From assembly GCA_001792535.1 (NCBI GenBank), contig MGGS01000001.1, positions 175,685 through 227,408 on the forward strand: DNA of 51,724 bases, given 5' to 3'. Made by a program: the position numbers and the translations under genes. The notes under the pieces were generated by a model. That model was given only the letters and a program-made list of their open reading frames with translations. It did no database searches and was not told the DNA's origin. Origin of the DNA: Candidatus Woesebacteria bacterium RIFCSPHIGHO2_02_FULL_42_20 (GTDB lineage Bacteria > Patescibacteriota > Microgenomatia > UBA8517). The number at the start of each line of letters is the position of its first letter. Position 1 is the stretch's first letter. Below, piece after piece: positions 29,650 to 36,196 of this stretch.

Positions 29650-30702
29650 ATGCGTAAAGAGGTAATACTCGCAATAATCTCGGGAGGTGTTTTGGGGGCT
29701 TTGATTGCCTTTGGAATTTGGAGGGCAAACAATAGTTCTAAAAACACCGAAAGACAAGCTGCTGTGACCTCGGGGTCGGATACAAACTTTGAAACAGCAC
29801 AGCCCATAAGCGTACCCAGATTAACCCTCGCCACACCGGCTAATGACGTGGTTGTCACTGAGTCGTCTGTTGCCGTGTCAGGTCTTACGCAACCTGGCAA
29901 TATCATTATCGTTTCTGGCGAAAATGAAGACCTGGCGCAGGTATCAAGCTCGACCGGAGCATTTGAGACAAATATTGACTTAATCGGAGGATTAAACGAA
30001 ATTAAGGTACTAGCTTTCGATAAAGATAAAAAGGTAGATGAAACAAAACTCAAGGTAGTTTATTCAACCGAATTTTCGAGATATATTCTATCGTCGCAAG
30101 AGCTGGAAGAAGCTCAAAACTCTGAAAACGAGGATGAAACAATCAGAAACAAGGTCCAAGAAAAGCTAAACCAAAAGCTCTCGCAACCGAAAGCGTACAT
30201 CGGCTCGATAACCGACATTGCCGAAACTTCCGTCCAAATAAAGTCGCACACTGGCGAAATAAAGCTTCTAAGCGTAACCGACGACGGTGCAACTTTTGTA
30301 AAAACCACTGGCAAGGCAAATCAAAATGTTGAGTTTGCGGACATGGCAATCGGCGACTACATAATCGCCATGGGTTTTGTTAATGAAAATGAAGTACTGG
30401 AGACAAAAAGAATATTAATAACAAATGCCGAAGCGTCCACCAGAAATGCAATTCTTTCCGCTGTCACTCAAATATCGGCTAACACAATCACCCTGGGTAC
30501 TGAACTCACCGCAAGGCTAACAAATAGTGCCGATTATTTTTTTCTGGAAGGTACCGGTCTCACCGAAATTACCGCAAGCAAAATCGAAACCGGAAACACA
30601 GTTATCGTTTCCGGACCAGTCAAAGACGGTAAATATCAAGCCAGAATCGTAATTGTAATAAGCCTTCCTTCCCCTACTCCAATTGAGAACAACGACCAAT
30701 AA
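29650..30702 (+). CDS. Membrane-anchored Ig-like domain protein
   Basis: 350 aa from ATG 29650. An N-terminal anchor (EVILAIISGGVLGALIAFGIW) precedes a bacterial Ig-like domain at about residues 55-145 (RLTLATPANDVVVTESSVAVSG, GNIIIVSGENEDLAQVSSSTG, GLNEIKVLAFD). A charged linker follows, then two beta-rich repeats of about 70 residues (YIGSITDIAETSVQIKSHTG; ILSAVTQISANTITLGTE) resembling DUF5666-type domains. It is probably extracytoplasmic and structural. The stop lies just before the promoter of the histidine attenuator. Confidence 0.7.
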   Translation: MRKEVILAIISGGVLGALIAFGIWRANNSSKNTERQAAVTSGSDTNFETAQPISVPRLTLATPANDVVVTESSVAVSGLTQPGNIIIVSGENEDLAQVSSSTGAFETNIDLIGGLNEIKVLAFDKDKKVDETKLKVVYSTEFSRYILSSQELEEAQNSENEDETIRNKVQEKLNQKLSQPKAYIGSITDIAETSVQIKSHTGEIKLLSVTDDGATFVKTTGKANQNVEFADMAIGDYIIAMGFVNENEVLETKRILITNAEASTRNAILSAVTQISANTITLGTELTARLTNSADYFFLEGTGLTEITASKIETGNTVIVSGPVKDGKYQARIVIVISLPSPTPIENNDQ

Positions 30703-30710
30703 CTCGAGGT

Positions 30711-30742
30711 TTGACTTTTAAAAGATTTGACTGTAGTATACT
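30711..30742 (+). promoter_or_regulatory. Promoter of the histidine-attenuated operon
   Basis: TTGACT at 30711-30716 lies 17 bp before TAGTAT (30734-30739), which overlaps TATACT (30737-30742). A second TTGACT is at 30727-30732. The start of transcription should fall at about 30746-30750, only a few nt before the leader ATG. Confidence 0.6.
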
Positions 30743-30752
30743 TTCCAGTACT

Positions 30753-30797
30753 ATGACTTTTCGTTTTACACAAAATCATCATCACGAACCAGCTTAA
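30753..30797 (+). CDS. Histidine leader peptide MTFRFTQNHHHEPA
   Basis: Fourteen codons with three consecutive His (CAT CAT CAC, codons 9-11) close to the end, as in enterobacterial HisL. The TAA stop at 30795-30797 abuts the antiterminator arm. A ribosome waiting for His-tRNA at codons 9-11 leaves the antiterminator free; one that finishes the peptide covers it. The ATG sits within a few nt of the predicted mRNA start, so the leader peptide itself is likely translated leaderless. Confidence 0.9.
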   Translation: MTFRFTQNHHHEPA

Positions 30798-30850
30798 GGT
30801 TGGCTCGTAATTTTGTTCTGTAATTTACCAGCCAACCGGCTGGTTTTTTT
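30798..30850 (+). promoter_or_regulatory. Histidine-responsive transcription attenuator
   Basis: Antiterminator: GGTTGGCT (30798-30805) pairs perfectly with AGCCAACC (30830-30837). After one mismatch, GTAA (30807-30810) pairs with TTAC (30825-30828). Terminator: ACCAGCC (30827-30833) with GGCTGGT (30838-30844), then seven T to 30850. Both structures need bases 30827-30837, so they exclude each other. A weak upstream helix, AACC (30787-30790) with GGTT (30798-30801), can act as the pause/anti-antiterminator. The first structural gene starts 14 nt after the T-run. Confidence 0.9.
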
Positions 30851-30863
30851 GTTGCCTAATAAT

Positions 30864-31649
30864 ATGAATTTAAAAATAGCAATACTGAGTCCTGGAGGAA
30901 ACGACACCGCGCTCGTTGAGCCATTCGTCGTTAATAAAAGACTTAAAAAAATCATAAACGACAAAATTATGAAAATGTTTCCAAATGTCGAACAAGTAGG
31001 ATTTGTAGACTCAAAAAAACTTCGTATTGAAATGGCCGGTGGTGAATTTTGTGGAAATGCCCTCCGGTCCGCAGCTTATTATTTCCTAAAAGGAAAACCC
31101 GGAAAGTTGGAAATTCAGGCTTCGGGAGTGAAAAACAGATTGTCTGCGGGGGTAAAAAGCAGTTCCGTTGCCTGGGCAAAGATGCCTGTTTACAAAAGTA
31201 AAAAGAAACTCCAAAAAATTGGCAGGTTCACTATCGTTCAACTCAAAGGAATTACTCATGTCGTCACCGATCTTCAAAAAATACCCGACAATAAGGAGGA
31301 ACTGAAAATTTACGGAAAAAGTATACTGGATAAATTGGGCTTGAGTGTCAAGTACCCGGCTTCCGGAGTAATGTTCATAAAAAGAACTGCCAAACGCTTA
31401 TCTCTCTATCCTGTAGTTTGGGTACGTGATATAGAAACTCTTTTTTATGAAACCGCTTGCGCCAGCGGTTCGGCCGCTGTGGGGATAGCCCGGTGGACGA
31501 AATTTTGCAAAGAGAATTTTGAAACCAAAATTATCCAGCCTTCCGGAAAAGAAATAAAAGTAGATATAAAAGCAAAAAGGGATGCAATTGACCAAGTGAC
31601 AATAAGCGGCCCTATAGAAACTGTTTTGTCAAAAACTATAAATTTATGA
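30864..31649 (+). CDS. DapF-fold epimerase/racemase, possible histidine racemase
   Basis: 261 aa from ATG 30864. A cofactor-independent two-Cys racemase of the diaminopimelate-epimerase fold: C63 in EMAGGEFCGNALRSAA and C199 in FYETACASGSAAVGIA are placed as the two acid/base Cys. The motif GGEFCGNA differs from standard DapF (typically GNGLRC/CGN forms). It resembles, from memory, CntK-type histidine racemases of opine metallophore pathways; that needs alignment. No other lysine- or DAP-pathway gene is nearby. The gene sits directly behind the histidine attenuator and in one operon with hisS, which favours a histidine-related substrate. The stop overlaps the next start by 4 nt (ATGA). Confidence 0.75.
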   Translation: MNLKIAILSPGGNDTALVEPFVVNKRLKKIINDKIMKMFPNVEQVGFVDSKKLRIEMAGGEFCGNALRSAAYYFLKGKPGKLEIQASGVKNRLSAGVKSSSVAWAKMPVYKSKKKLQKIGRFTIVQLKGITHVVTDLQKIPDNKEELKIYGKSILDKLGLSVKYPASGVMFIKRTAKRLSLYPVVWVRDIETLFYETACASGSAAVGIARWTKFCKENFETKIIQPSGKEIKVDIKAKRDAIDQVTISGPIETVLSKTINL

Positions 31650-33004
31650 GTAAAGAAATTGAAGCAAATAAAGCTGTTCAAAAAACATTGACAAGAATGC
31701 TAGCTCCGTGGACGTCTCTTAACGGAGATACTCCCTCGCTTCCAGTGTTTACTGCAACGGAGGTAGCCCGTGAAGTCCAGATGTCAGCCCCTCGCGTCCT
31801 TCAAGCGATAGAGGCAAGAATAACTATTCCTTGCGGCGACAAAGCTTTGATAGCAACTACCCTTGATCCACTCATTAACCCTAAAAGGGTTATCCGCCGG
31901 GCACGATACCAGTCAAGGCCTCCGGGAGGAGGGCCAGTGCAGAGGGCAAGATTCCAAAAACAAAAAGCCGCGCGAGTTCTCCCCATAATGGCAAAGGAAA
32001 GAACGCGCATCATATTTGTCAGCCAAGACAGCGTTATCGAAGATCCCACACTGGAGATCGACGATCTTGGTATAGAGCAATTAAAACCACAGGAATCCGT
32101 CGAAGAAATAATTTATTCAAGCGACAAAGGGCCTCAAGTAATGAAAGCGTACAAGCAAATCGAGACTCTGGGGGAAAGAAATTTTGTACTGGGCGGAGAT
32201 AAAGGAAGCCTAGCCAAAGCTCTGTTAAATTTTGCCGATGGCGCGGAAACCGATTTTATAGTTTGGAACTGTGCCGGATTTGAGTGGAAAAAAGACCCAA
32301 GGTCACGTTTTCCTAAATGCGAAATCGTTGAAAATAGTAACGAGTCGATGGCACTTTACTACGCTCCCCGGATCAGGGAAATTGCAAAGATACTCGTATC
32401 CCTTAGTAAACCAGAATTCACAATACTCTTACCTTCAAATGAGGTAGACGATTCTAAATATGAGAGACTTGGAATATATTCCCAACCTGCCGCGGTCCGT
32501 TTATCTGTTCTTCAGGAAACAAAAGCAAAAATAGACGAAGGTTTTAGATCATATACTCTACAGCCTCATGTTACAACTTGGAGCGAGTTTTTACAAAGCC
32601 GAGGTTTGCAAAACAACCAAAGTTTTTATTCTTCGAATGGTTCGGAAGTATTACGCCAATCACCAAAATTTCCAAAAATTAAAGAGGAGATGCTCAAAAG
32701 CGCGCGGGCAGAGTTTGGAGCAAAAGGGATGAAACTTGATACTGAAACACTTTTGGCTATTCAAACCGCTTATTACAGCATGTATGTCGGCGAGGGTGTC
32801 GCTTTCGATGAACTAGCGCGACAAGGAAGGAACATAATAATTCTCAATTTCGAAGAAATGAGAGTGCCGCAGCTTGAGTATTTGGGAGCTCAAGGAAACA
32901 TAACTATTATTACACCTGCCAAGGCTCGGGAGATAAAGGCTTTTTACGACTGGAAAAACAAAAAAATCGCTTATCGCAACGAAAAACTGAAAGGAAGAAT
33001 ATGA
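31646..33004 (+). CDS. 452-aa protein of unknown function in the histidine operon
   Basis: Residues 33-62 (VFTATEVAREVQMSAPRVLQAIEARI) look like a helix-turn-helix. A basic stretch follows (NPKRVIRRARYQSRPPGGG, 79-96), suggesting nucleic-acid contact. The C-terminal domain (about 185-415) has GSLAKALLNFADGAETDFIVWNC, CAGFEW at 209-214, PRIREIAKIL at 241-250, ILLPSNEVDDSKYERLG, and ARQGRNIIILNFEE at 391-404. This order and spacing match the C-terminal domain of the 666-aa protein at 23469-25469. There are no membrane segments. It is translationally coupled on both sides by 4-nt overlaps. Function is unknown. Confidence 0.8.
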   Translation: MSKEIEANKAVQKTLTRMLAPWTSLNGDTPSLPVFTATEVAREVQMSAPRVLQAIEARITIPCGDKALIATTLDPLINPKRVIRRARYQSRPPGGGPVQRARFQKQKAARVLPIMAKERTRIIFVSQDSVIEDPTLEIDDLGIEQLKPQESVEEIIYSSDKGPQVMKAYKQIETLGERNFVLGGDKGSLAKALLNFADGAETDFIVWNCAGFEWKKDPRSRFPKCEIVENSNESMALYYAPRIREIAKILVSLSKPEFTILLPSNEVDDSKYERLGIYSQPAAVRLSVLQETKAKIDEGFRSYTLQPHVTTWSEFLQSRGLQNNQSFYSSNGSEVLRQSPKFPKIKEEMLKSARAEFGAKGMKLDTETLLAIQTAYYSMYVGEGVAFDELARQGRNIIILNFEEMRVPQLEYLGAQGNITIITPAKAREIKAFYDWKNKKIAYRNEKLKGRI

Positions 33005-33972
33005 CAGCTAAACCAGGATATGCTTTAGTTGGAGCCAAGGAAAATAAAGTCTTTTTCTCGGAATATCAAGGTTTTGCAAACCTTAAAGCAAAAGAAGAAA
33101 TCGGTCCAAACACTCAATTTAGACTTGCCTCTTTAACAAAGCCATTTACAATGATGGCGATTCTTTACTTAGTCAACCAAGGAAAAATAAATCTAGTTGA
33201 CCCTCTTTCTTTATTCTTTCCCAATTTTCCAAGGTGGGCAAAAGACGTTAAAGTTAGTAATCTTTTGAGTCACACCTCAGGATTGCCGGACTATGAAGAG
33301 GTACTGAAAAAGCAAAATATTACAAAAGGAAACGAGCCGAATAACAAATCCGCTCTGGAGGTTATTTCTAAATTCGACTCATCACTTTTTCGCCCGGGCA
33401 GTAAACAACTATATAGCGAGACTGGCTATGTCTTACTTGCTTTATTGATCGAACAAGTTGCACAAATACCTTATAAAGGTTTTCTTGAGAAAATAATTTT
33501 CAGGCCGTTAAAAATGACTAATACCCTTGTTGCAGATAAACCAACACAGAGATTTAAAAGGCGTGCAATCGGTTACCAGAGAGTAAATAGGAATTACAGT
33601 AAATTCGACTATGATCCCCTCAATTACATTGTGGGAAACGAAGGGATTTACTCAACAGCTAATGATCTTATTAAATGGAGTAACGCGCTATTCTCGGATC
33701 GAATTGTGCCTCAAAAACTGCTGAAAAAGGCTTTCACTCCCGCTAAACTTTACTGTTGCATACCGGCTGCGCGAGGGTATAGCTTCGAAGTAAATAAGTT
33801 TCGAAACGAAAAAATTGTTTATCACAGCGGAAGTTGGGTTGGTTTCCGACTCATGATGCTGTTAGTTCCTAGACACAAAATAGCCATATTCTTTCTTGCC
33901 AACTCGACAGAATATGACGATAAAACACAAAGAATCATTCCAATTTTAGACCTATTGTGTCAATATTGGTAA
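33001..33972 (+). CDS. Serine beta-lactamase-like hydrolase (PF00144), cytoplasmic
   Basis: 323 aa. Class C beta-lactamase/DD-peptidase fold with S44-x-x-K47 (RLASLTKPF), a Tyr motif at Y138 (YSETGYVLLALL), LSHTSGLPDY, and YHSGSWVGFR in the third-motif position. No signal peptide or anchor is seen, unlike most cell-wall members, so a cytoplasmic esterase, amidase or D-aminopeptidase role is plausible. It overlaps the 452-aa gene by 4 nt and precedes hisS by 16 nt. A D-amino-acid-specific hydrolase would fit with the racemase upstream, but that is inference. Confidence 0.85.
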   Translation: MTAKPGYALVGAKENKVFFSEYQGFANLKAKEEIGPNTQFRLASLTKPFTMMAILYLVNQGKINLVDPLSLFFPNFPRWAKDVKVSNLLSHTSGLPDYEEVLKKQNITKGNEPNNKSALEVISKFDSSLFRPGSKQLYSETGYVLLALLIEQVAQIPYKGFLEKIIFRPLKMTNTLVADKPTQRFKRRAIGYQRVNRNYSKFDYDPLNYIVGNEGIYSTANDLIKWSNALFSDRIVPQKLLKKAFTPAKLYCCIPAARGYSFEVNKFRNEKIVYHSGSWVGFRLMMLLVPRHKIAIFFLANSTEYDDKTQRIIPILDLLCQYW

Positions 33973-33988
33973 AAGATGTAATCAAAAT

Positions 33989-35245
33989 ATGAGTAAAACA
34001 AAAATCCAAACACTCAAAGGTTTACCCCGTAGGCTTCAGCCTCTACGGGGCTTCCGGGACTTTTTACCCCAAGAGGCAAGGAAACGAGCCTGGCTCAAAG
34101 ACAGGATGATCGAAGTATTTGAAAAATGGGGTTTTGAGCCTTTGGAAACCCCCACTTTGGAACCGTTGGAACTTTTTTCGGGCGAGATAGGTGAAGATGA
34201 GAAATTATTTTATAAATTCAAGGATCAAGGTGGCCGTAGTGTCGCCTTAAGGTACGACCAGACAGTGCCTACTTGCCGAGTGGTCGGCCAGTACTTTGAT
34301 AAAATAACCTTCCCCTTCAAGCGCTACCAAATCCAAAGTGCCTATCGCGCAGAAAAACCCCAAAAGGGAAGATTTCGAGAATTTGTTCAAGCAGATATCG
34401 ACATTTTTGGTGTGGACTCCCCCATTGCTGACGCCGAGTGTATCTCCGCTAGCATCGCTCTCTACCAAACTCTCGGCTTTAAAAACGTCGTGGCATTAAT
34501 AAATAACAGAGATTTACTGCGAGGAATTCCCTACCCTGTAATTGCTGCTATCGACAAACTAAAAAAAATTGGCCGTGATGGAGTGCTAAATGAAATCCAG
34601 CAAAAAGGTTACAGCAGAAAACAAGCAAAGGAATTTCTAAAGACTACTGCCGGCATCCAACCCGATAAAAAGCTCGAAACAATTTTCGACTACTTGGCAA
34701 GGTCCGGGTTTTCAAAAGAAAACTATAAATTTGAGCCAAGTTTGATGCGGTCATTTTCTTACTCCCAGGGCCCGATCTGGGAAATGATAATTCCTGAATA
34801 CACAACTGCATCTTTTGGGGGCTCTGTGGGCGGTGGCGAACGCTACGACGACATGGTAAAGCGAATTACCGGTAGAAAAATCGCGGGAACCGGCATTGCT
34901 TTCGGTTTCGACAGAACTTTAGAAGCCATAGAAGTCTGCAACCTCCTTCCAAATCTTGAACCAAGCGCCAAAGTTCTAATTACCGTTTTTGAAGAGAAAC
35001 TATTAGACATGTCAATCAAAGTCGCCCAAAAGCTTCGGGATGAAAATATAAATACCGAGATTTATCTAAATGAGTCGGAGAAACTCGAAAAACAACTCAA
35101 ATATGCTGACAAGAAAGGTATCCCGTTTGTTGTAATAATTGGCCCTGAAGAAGCCGCGAAAGGCGTGGTCAAACTGAAAGACATGAAAGCACGAACCGAA
35201 AAACTTTTATCCATCGACGAACTAATTACGGTCTTCAACAATTGA
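33989..35245 (+). CDS. hisS: Histidyl-tRNA synthetase
   Basis: Charges tRNA-His with histidine. The 418-aa class II synthetase has motif 1 (FRDFLPQEARKR ... PTLEPLELF), motif 2 (YRAEKPQKGRFREFVQADIDIFG), the histidine motif (GGGERYDDMVKRITG) and motif 3 (GTGIAFGFDRTLEAI). The C-terminal anticodon-binding domain (KVLITVFEEKLLDMSIKVAQKLRDE) is complete. Residues 12-21 (LPRRLQPLRG) are an insert encoded by a palindrome, between K-G and the conserved FRDF. Being in an operon behind a histidine leader peptide is functionally coherent: low charged tRNA-His would raise HisRS. Confidence 0.96.
   Translation: MSKTKIQTLKGLPRRLQPLRGFRDFLPQEARKRAWLKDRMIEVFEKWGFEPLETPTLEPLELFSGEIGEDEKLFYKFKDQGGRSVALRYDQTVPTCRVVGQYFDKITFPFKRYQIQSAYRAEKPQKGRFREFVQADIDIFGVDSPIADAECISASIALYQTLGFKNVVALINNRDLLRGIPYPVIAAIDKLKKIGRDGVLNEIQQKGYSRKQAKEFLKTTAGIQPDKKLETIFDYLARSGFSKENYKFEPSLMRSFSYSQGPIWEMIIPEYTTASFGGSVGGGERYDDMVKRITGRKIAGTGIAFGFDRTLEAIEVCNLLPNLEPSAKVLITVFEEKLLDMSIKVAQKLRDENINTEIYLNESEKLEKQLKYADKKGIPFVVIIGPEEAAKGVVKLKDMKARTEKLLSIDELITVFNN
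34025..34050 (+). repeat. Palindromic insert in hisS
   Basis: CCCCGTA (34025-34031) pairs with TACGGGG (34044-34050). The inner GGCT/AGCC (34032-34035 and 34038-34041) extends the stem, with a 2-nt bulge TC at 34042-34043 and a 2-nt loop. It encodes most of the extra residues PRRLQPLRG near the HisRS N-terminus. It differs in sequence from the CAGGCAGG inserts of the gyrase genes, so it is a second palindrome family. Confidence 0.65.
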
Positions 35246-35278: not shown

Positions 35279-36196
35279 ATGAGTCCCAATCGTCTTAAAG
35301 CCTACTTTAGTCTCATCTTGGTTGCAGCCATTTGGGGCGCTGCAGGGCCTGTAATTAAATTCACACTAGAAGGAATTGATCCTCTTCCCTTTTTGTCATA
35401 CCGGTTTGCAATATCGGCTGTTCTTTCTCTGGCTTTTTTTGTATATAAAATCCGCAAAGGGAAGCAATTTAGAAGACTAAAAGCCAACTTCCCTCTTGCA
35501 ATTCTATATGGTCTACTTGCTGTGCCCATCTCCTTAGGAATCCTCTTTATTGGTCTTGATAAAACGACGGTACTCGACCTGACATTGATTGGAGTCGCAG
35601 GGCCTTTAATAGTTACTGCCGGGGGGGCGCTTTTTTTCCACGATCATATAACCCACAAGGAAAGAATCGGAATATCAATAGTGATTGTAGGTGTTATTTT
35701 AAATTCCATCTTCCCAATACTCAGGGTAGGGTCCGACATAAGACTTACAGGTAATCTTCTCTTATTGGTTTTCTTGGCTGCGGATGCGGCTTCTGTTCTC
35801 ACTGCAAAAAAGGCAGTGCAAATAGGCATCAAGTCGTCAAACCTGACCAATTTAGCCTTTATAATCGGTGCGCTGACCTTAATACCCCTGACAGCGCTTA
35901 TTTATGGTCCTGGAAACCTAATCAATTCAATCCTTAACCTAGAGCTCAAATATCATCTTGGCGTCTGGTACATGGCGCTACTGTCGGGGAGTTTGGCTTA
36001 TTATCTTTACGTGCGTGGCCAACGCACAATAGAGGTCTCTGAGGCTGTACTTTTCAACTATCTGCAACCTTTGTTTATGGTTCCATTGGCAGTTTTTTGG
36101 CTTGGCGAAAAGTTGTCTGCAACATTTTTAATTGGAGCTGTAATTATCGCCGCAGGGCTCTTTATTGCTGAATACAAAAAAGGAAACAAAAAGTGA
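35279..36196 (+). CDS. EamA/DMT-family transporter
   Basis: 305 aa with ten predicted membrane helices in two EamA repeats (AYFSLILVAAIWGAAGPVIKF at 10-30; NLLLLVFLAADAASVLTAKK at about 160). The drug/metabolite transporter superfamily commonly exports amino acids or metabolites. The substrate is not predictable. It starts 33 nt after hisS and overlaps the next gene by 4 nt, so it may be the last step of the histidine operon or the first of a surface-protein unit. A short AT-rich repeat (ATTGATTATTGATTATT) fills the gap before it. Confidence 0.88.
   Translation: MSPNRLKAYFSLILVAAIWGAAGPVIKFTLEGIDPLPFLSYRFAISAVLSLAFFVYKIRKGKQFRRLKANFPLAILYGLLAVPISLGILFIGLDKTTVLDLTLIGVAGPLIVTAGGALFFHDHITHKERIGISIVIVGVILNSIFPILRVGSDIRLTGNLLLLVFLAADAASVLTAKKAVQIGIKSSNLTNLAFIIGALTLIPLTALIYGPGNLINSILNLELKYHLGVWYMALLSGSLAYYLYVRGQRTIEVSEAVLFNYLQPLFMVPLAVFWLGEKLSATFLIGAVIIAAGLFIAEYKKGNKK

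Follow-up and report, generated by a model that had tools for sequence, protein, structure and literature searches.

The leader region

The 51,724-nt stretch of DNA analysed here (the window) belongs to contig MGGS01000001.1 of Candidatus Woesebacteria bacterium RIFCSPHIGHO2_02_FULL_42_20, a genome that named homologues assign to the Microgenomates. On its forward (+) strand, to which all coordinates of the window refer, it contains a candidate histidine attenuator in front of an operon that includes hisS. The leader open reading frame (ORF), MTFRFTQNHHHEPA*, comprises 14 codons between the ATG at 30753 and the stop codon at 30795-30797 (30753-30797; ATG ACT TTT CGT TTT ACA CAA AAT CAT CAT CAC GAA CCA GCT TAA). 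Its three His codons, CAT CAT CAC, lie at 30777-30785, as expected from a preliminary description of this DNA, which had reported a 14-residue frame with His-His-His near its end. A sigma-70-like promoter is predicted at 30711-30742, with TTGACT (30711-30716) as -35 box and either TAGTAT (30734-30739) or TATACT (30737-30742) as -10 box. The promoter-like arrangement TTGACT-17-TAGTAT spans 30711-30739, and the transcription start of the leader RNA is predicted at about 30746-30750.

The RNA downstream of the His codons can be divided into four segments. Segment 1 consists of the last codons, GAA CCA GCT (30786-30794), and provides the 5' arm of a 1:2 protector hairpin (30786-30806). Segment 2, GGTTGGCT (30798-30805), adjoins the leader stop codon and is the 5' arm of the antiterminator. 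Segment 3 (30827-30837) contains the 5' arm and the loop of the terminator and includes AGCCAACC (30830-30837), the complement of segment 2, which corresponds to the inner portion of this arm plus the loop. Segment 4 and the U-tract (GGCTGGT plus a T run, 30838-30850) form the 3' side of the intrinsic terminator, ACCAGCC-AACC-GGCTGGT (30827-30844), a 7-bp GC-rich hairpin with seven T at 30844-30850. Both the pairing of the stop-adjacent segment with the terminator and the terminator itself had been described correctly; the distance from terminator to the next ATG (30864), given as 14 nt, is 13 nt when measured from the end of the T run. The region thus combines a short ORF with clustered His codons, placed between a predicted promoter and the first gene, with an antiterminator and an intrinsic terminator that exclude each other, features that are hallmarks of ribosome-mediated attenuators.

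The operon behind the leader

The first gene of the operon (30864-31649) encodes a histidine-racemase-like protein of the DapF fold family. Histidine racemases rank as its top matches (NF052224, E=2.5e-27; CntK, E=1.3e-23; PDB 9cr6, E=2.9e-21), and its two catalytic Cys motifs (GEFCGN, ACASGS) align to those of PDB 9cr6/9cr1. Because it scores far under the curated equivalog cut-offs for NF052224 (96 against 400 bits) and NF033599 (84 against 300 bits), its substrate is putative. The next ORF (31646-33004) encodes a 452-residue protein without any Pfam or NCBIfam family match and overlaps both the racemase-like gene and the following gene for a serine beta-lactamase/D-aminopeptidase-like hydrolase (33001-33972; PF00144, E=1.8e-50). 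The histidyl-tRNA synthetase gene hisS (33989-35245; TIGR00442, E=4e-102, over the cut-off) begins 16 nt past the hydrolase gene and is followed after 33 nt by a gene for an EamA-family transporter (35279-36196; PF00892), which is also found 3' of hisS at most related loci. The proposal that an operon with hisS is controlled therefore stands as far as the presence of hisS is concerned; hisS is only the fourth gene, and the first is racemase-like. The presence of hisS provides the window operon with a downstream gene that uses the sensed amino acid, and cognate genes lie behind leaders elsewhere.

A biosynthetic his operon, the first expectation for the controlled genes, was rejected. The gene hisG was not found in the source genome, which is 98% complete, while the same search was positive in 13 of 14 control genomes. 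The absence of hisG implies that the attenuator governs tRNA charging and probably salvage, rather than biosynthesis.

Folding of the leader RNA

The leader fold is more stable than expected from shuffled sequences (z = -5.0; 0 of 200 shuffles equally stable), with helix energies of -17 kcal/mol for 2:3, -12.3 kcal/mol for 3:4 and -5.9 kcal/mol for the 1:2 hairpin. To simulate translation, a ribosome was placed with its A site at the stop codon or at each of the His codons in turn and its front edge 12-16 nt downstream, and the uncovered RNA was folded. At all three His codons the most favourable fold is the 2:3 antiterminator (-13 to -25 kcal/mol); once the ribosome is at the leader stop codon, the terminator alone (-12.3 kcal/mol) remains. 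The fold flips after the last of the three His codons but before the stop, i.e., the spacing in the window is that of an attenuator, and the stalling logic proposed earlier works in silico. Several leaders share the ending CCA GCN TAA (Pro-Ala-stop; QPA*, EPA*, PPA*, APA*), because segment 1 pairs as RNA with segment 2.

Conservation and covariation in the Microgenomates

A covariance model was built from eight leaders, taken from the window and from loci 5' of hisS. It matched 61 of 374 Microgenomates genomes, and leaders with His codons and differing, yet complementary, stems are spread over no fewer than 14 families of this class. They precede hisS (e.g., MLITRLFQNHHHTNF*), tRNA-His genes (MNTLMSTHHHHHQ*, MTSLSLHHHCQNRE*), racemase-like genes (MKINISLKSHHHLP*), a gene for a hisC-like aminotransferase (MVFNLTIGYCHPPA*) and hutH (MNLINLTNLNSHHSLPQAGSAFM*). 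A locus in Gottesmanbacteria (L042) reproduces the layout of the window, with leader, terminator, racemase-like gene, hisS and EamA transporter. Both CAT and CAC are used for His in the leaders, a synonymous variation which indicates that they are read by codon. Leaders for other amino acids also stand before matching genes: Thr leaders precede thrS, an LLLL leader leuS, a Leu-rich leader a leuA-like gene, an Ile leader ilvB, a Phe/Tyr leader the gene for 3-deoxy-D-arabino-heptulosonate-7-phosphate (DAHP) synthase and a Ser-rich leader a serB-like gene. Outside the class, an ORF with His-His plus a terminator was found in 0 of 70 upstream regions from a non-exhaustive sample of high-scoring hisS genes, compared to 5 of 29 regions inside (p=0.002).

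The stems of these leaders belong to several types (CCAGCC/GGCTGG, CCCGC/GCGGG, CCCTC/GAGGG, CCTCC/GGAGG), showing that pairing is kept and not sequence. In the curated set of 56 leaders (36 of them His leaders), pairing of segment 2 with its own terminator arm averages -13.8 kcal/mol, versus -9.2 kcal/mol with the arms of other leaders, and the sum of the own-pairing energies was reached by 0 of 10,000 permutations. In-silico switching, defined as loss of the terminator on the regulatory codons and its return at the stop, is observed for 39 of the 56 leaders and for 26 of the 36 His leaders, but for only 13 of 112 terminators of the source genome that were given the same spacings (Fisher 3.8e-14). 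A stricter search 5' of hisS, thrS and leuS found the cognate residue in 9 of 13 matches (label permutation, p=1.4e-4). The elements, their complementarity, their covarying conservation and the match between codons and genes in relatives are thus established by sequence. Three loci were not used as proof: L161 (an aspartate-racemase case) and L163 (an MFS-like gene with a Tyr leader), which do not switch in folding, and L168 (a purF-like case), which was excluded from the curated set.

The source genome itself contains a second attenuator. The ORF MNLVTTTTTVAL*, with the run TTTTT, ends shortly before the ATG of thrS, at about 142.6 kb of contig C1 (L194:3951-4045) and outside the window; the identity of thrS is confirmed, and the leader has its own competing terminator with the arms GGGAGGT/ACCTCCT/GGGAGGT. 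It was found by a detector that requires a terminator, a competing upstream complement and a short ORF ending at the complement. Run over both strands of the window, the detector returned a single match, the His leader; over all 1.08 Mb of the genome it returned nine candidates, of which only the His leader and MNLVTTTTTVAL* contain an amino-acid run.

In some relatives, the leader ORF is part of a regulator gene. At three loci (L162:1289-1609, L034:1066-1383 and L149:1243-1557) a gene for a YerC/TrpR-related regulator (TIGR02531) has the His-rich leader as its 3' end, and L128 looks similar, so that a repressor gene doubles as leader ORF. Near-perfect palindromes, e.g., TTACTATGTTAACATAGTAA, occur at some His-leader promoters (upstream in L156, L157 and L167; at about 4840-4870 in L042). 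They resemble operators of HisR (YerC), and a double control by repressor and attenuator is possible.

Weighing of alternatives

Several observations weigh against a His attenuator at this site. The detector found 13 candidates in a reversed-sequence control, two of them with runs, and an amino-acid run alone is therefore not significant within one genome. This would fit an ordinary terminator belonging to the upstream gene, with a separate promoter behind it and with His codons and complementarity arising by chance, as would a same-strand gene that ends at 30702, 125 nt upstream. However, a promoter-like site lies between this gene and the leader, control terminators seldom switch, and His codons, segment 2 and terminator recur with covariation before hisS and other His genes. 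Each of the two real runs, moreover, precedes its cognate synthetase operon, and it is this match between codon and gene that carries the weight. A chance arrangement is consequently very unlikely.

The distribution is also uneven. In the operon of G015 (L150; tRNA-His, racemase-like gene and hisS; 65% identity of HisS), two consecutive terminators are present but an ORF with His codons is missing, so that the leader appears to have been lost. The leaders of G014 and G030 contain one His each, and no His-leader element is seen in the close relatives G050, G051, G041, G023 and G017. The His attenuator is thus patchy, having been gained and lost, and the alignment of homologous operons suggested in the preliminary description yields covarying His leaders in many families without yielding them throughout. 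Since G015 is the nearest relative with the operon, and in view of the single-His leaders of G014 and G030, an ancestral attenuator could now be decaying or weakly used in the source lineage as well. This is improbable, because the elements in the source genome are all intact and energetically balanced, and the genome retains the intact attenuator before thrS. Two further points concern the curated set: 10 of the 36 His leaders fail to switch in the simple folding test, and the set was assembled partly with a model derived from eight of its own members and was curated by hand, which makes the prevalence values lower bounds and not an unbiased sample.

A T-box or another tRNA- or metabolite-binding RNA, in which the His codons would be incidental, is the least probable explanation. 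T-boxes do occur in the class, with matches in 69 of 137 genomes (E <= 1e-3), nine of them over the Rfam cut-off; T-boxes and leader peptides alike seem to be in use there. The T-box model (RF00230), however, matches neither the site nor any other part of the source genome, and Rfam searches found nothing at the leader, whether the gathering thresholds or relaxed ones were applied. In addition, the leader is only about 100 nt long, and its reading frame and His codons persist while the stems change.

Proposed mechanism and physiological role

The region 30711-30850 is most probably a ribosome-mediated transcription attenuator that senses charged His-tRNA, with a probability of about 0.9 judged from sequence. 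In 50 of the 56 curated leaders a -10 box lies wholly 5' of the start codon, with a median gap of 8.5 nt, and a Shine-Dalgarno-like word is present in only seven. Transcription should consequently start at the leader ATG or a few bases from it; the leader mRNAs look leaderless, with starts that are predicted. The ribosome would accordingly initiate on an essentially leaderless message. When His-tRNA is charged, it would reach the stop codon and mask segments 1 and 2, allowing the 3:4 terminator to form. When charged His-tRNA is short, it would stall at CAT CAT CAC and leave segment 2 free for 2:3 pairing, which would prevent terminator formation and allow the polymerase to enter the operon for the racemase-like protein, the protein without family match, the D-aminopeptidase-like hydrolase, HisS and the EamA transporter. 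Transcription start, stalling and termination are what we infer, as is co-transcription through hisS, because the genes overlap or are separated by gaps of at most 33 nt.

The likely logic is that low levels of charged His-tRNA lead to more histidyl-tRNA synthetase; salvage of D-His or His-peptides would possibly be raised as well. A wider proposal, which we regard as tentative and slightly short of an even chance, is that Microgenomates-type Patescibacteria use a set of leaderless attenuators (His, Thr, Leu, Ile, Phe/Tyr, Ser) as a main means of amino-acid sensing in small and often auxotrophic cells, that a yerC/HisR-type repressor gene carries the sensing codons at its 3' end in some lineages, and that the His switch described here drives hisS together with D-histidine/His-peptide salvage via racemase, D-aminopeptidase-like hydrolase and transporter. 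If true, reduced-genome, host-dependent bacteria would retain a tight coupling of transcription and translation and use it for sensing charged tRNA. The leader codons would then be labels that name the amino acid tied to a downstream gene of unknown role, and could support function assignment for genes of the Candidate Phyla Radiation (CPR), such as the His-labelled phosphoribosyltransferase-like and nucleoside-hydrolase genes.

Relation to known attenuators

His leader peptides are an established feature of enterobacteria, to whose leaders the architecture found here had been likened. The likeness to hisL (RF00514) holds for the short ORF, the tandem His codons near the stop, the mutually exclusive 1:2, 2:3 and 3:4 helices, the U-tract terminator and the ribosome as sensor. 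Unlike in E. coli, the leader appears leaderless and lacks a Shine-Dalgarno sequence, it contains three His codons instead of seven, and it controls a racemase-like gene and hisS, whereas hisL controls hisG-I. The RF00514 covariance model has no match at the site or in 37 relatives, with a positive E. coli control.

In Firmicutes, His leader peptides have been predicted for hisS*/hisZ of bacilli, including leaders before hisS paralogues (PMC2965389), and for his operons of the B. cereus group, Eubacteriales and Erysipelotrichales (PMC9413887). They share the His-codon ORF and competing hairpins with the leaders described here and, in bacilli, the hisS-family target. The leaders described here differ in phylum, in targets that include tRNA-His, racemase-like genes and hutH, and in that some are the 3' end of a yerC-type gene. 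A leaderless layout is known from the trpL attenuator of Sinorhizobium meliloti, an alphaproteobacterium, where the RNA starts at the ATG of the leader ORF (PMC7298713), but the specificity is for Trp. The first controlled gene shares fold family and catalytic Cys motifs with CntK and with the racemase HisR of Fusobacterium nucleatum (PMC11602996). As stated in the preliminary description, leader-peptide attenuation appears unreported for Patescibacteria; no description of it was found in the open-access papers searched. The kind of mechanism is known, while its presence in this phylum, the targeting of racemase-like and tRNA-His genes, the leaderless layout and the YerC-type regulator-tail leaders are apparently new.

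Further leaders and targets

At nine loci (L123, L139, L142, L145, L148, L151, L154, L158 and L169) the His attenuator is located directly 5' of a tRNA-His gene, where it would regulate tRNA-His supply itself. In L167 (G489:C3:479960-480085) it precedes a gene over the cut-off for hutH (histidine ammonia-lyase). That a lack of His should induce an enzyme degrading it would be paradoxical. In the racemase-like proteins behind the His leaders of L130, L042 and L148, the first catalytic Cys is replaced by Ser (EFSGN, EFSAN), and some of these proteins may therefore not be racemases.

His leaders also precede nucleoside-hydrolase and/or phosphoribosyltransferase-like genes (L054:1625-4365, L144, L156 and L162), with a kinase-like domain in L054, hinting at a so far unrecognised histidine-linked pathway. 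In L160 (G699:C88), two Phe/Tyr-rich leaders, MTKKNFYFYFTRQRGG* followed by MKRILVLNFYFYFYPI*, are arranged in tandem before a DAHP synthase gene. Tyr-rich leaders (SHWYYYS and SYYYYQ) are found in L136 and L164, before the genes for a radical SAM protein and for a protein without Pfam match.
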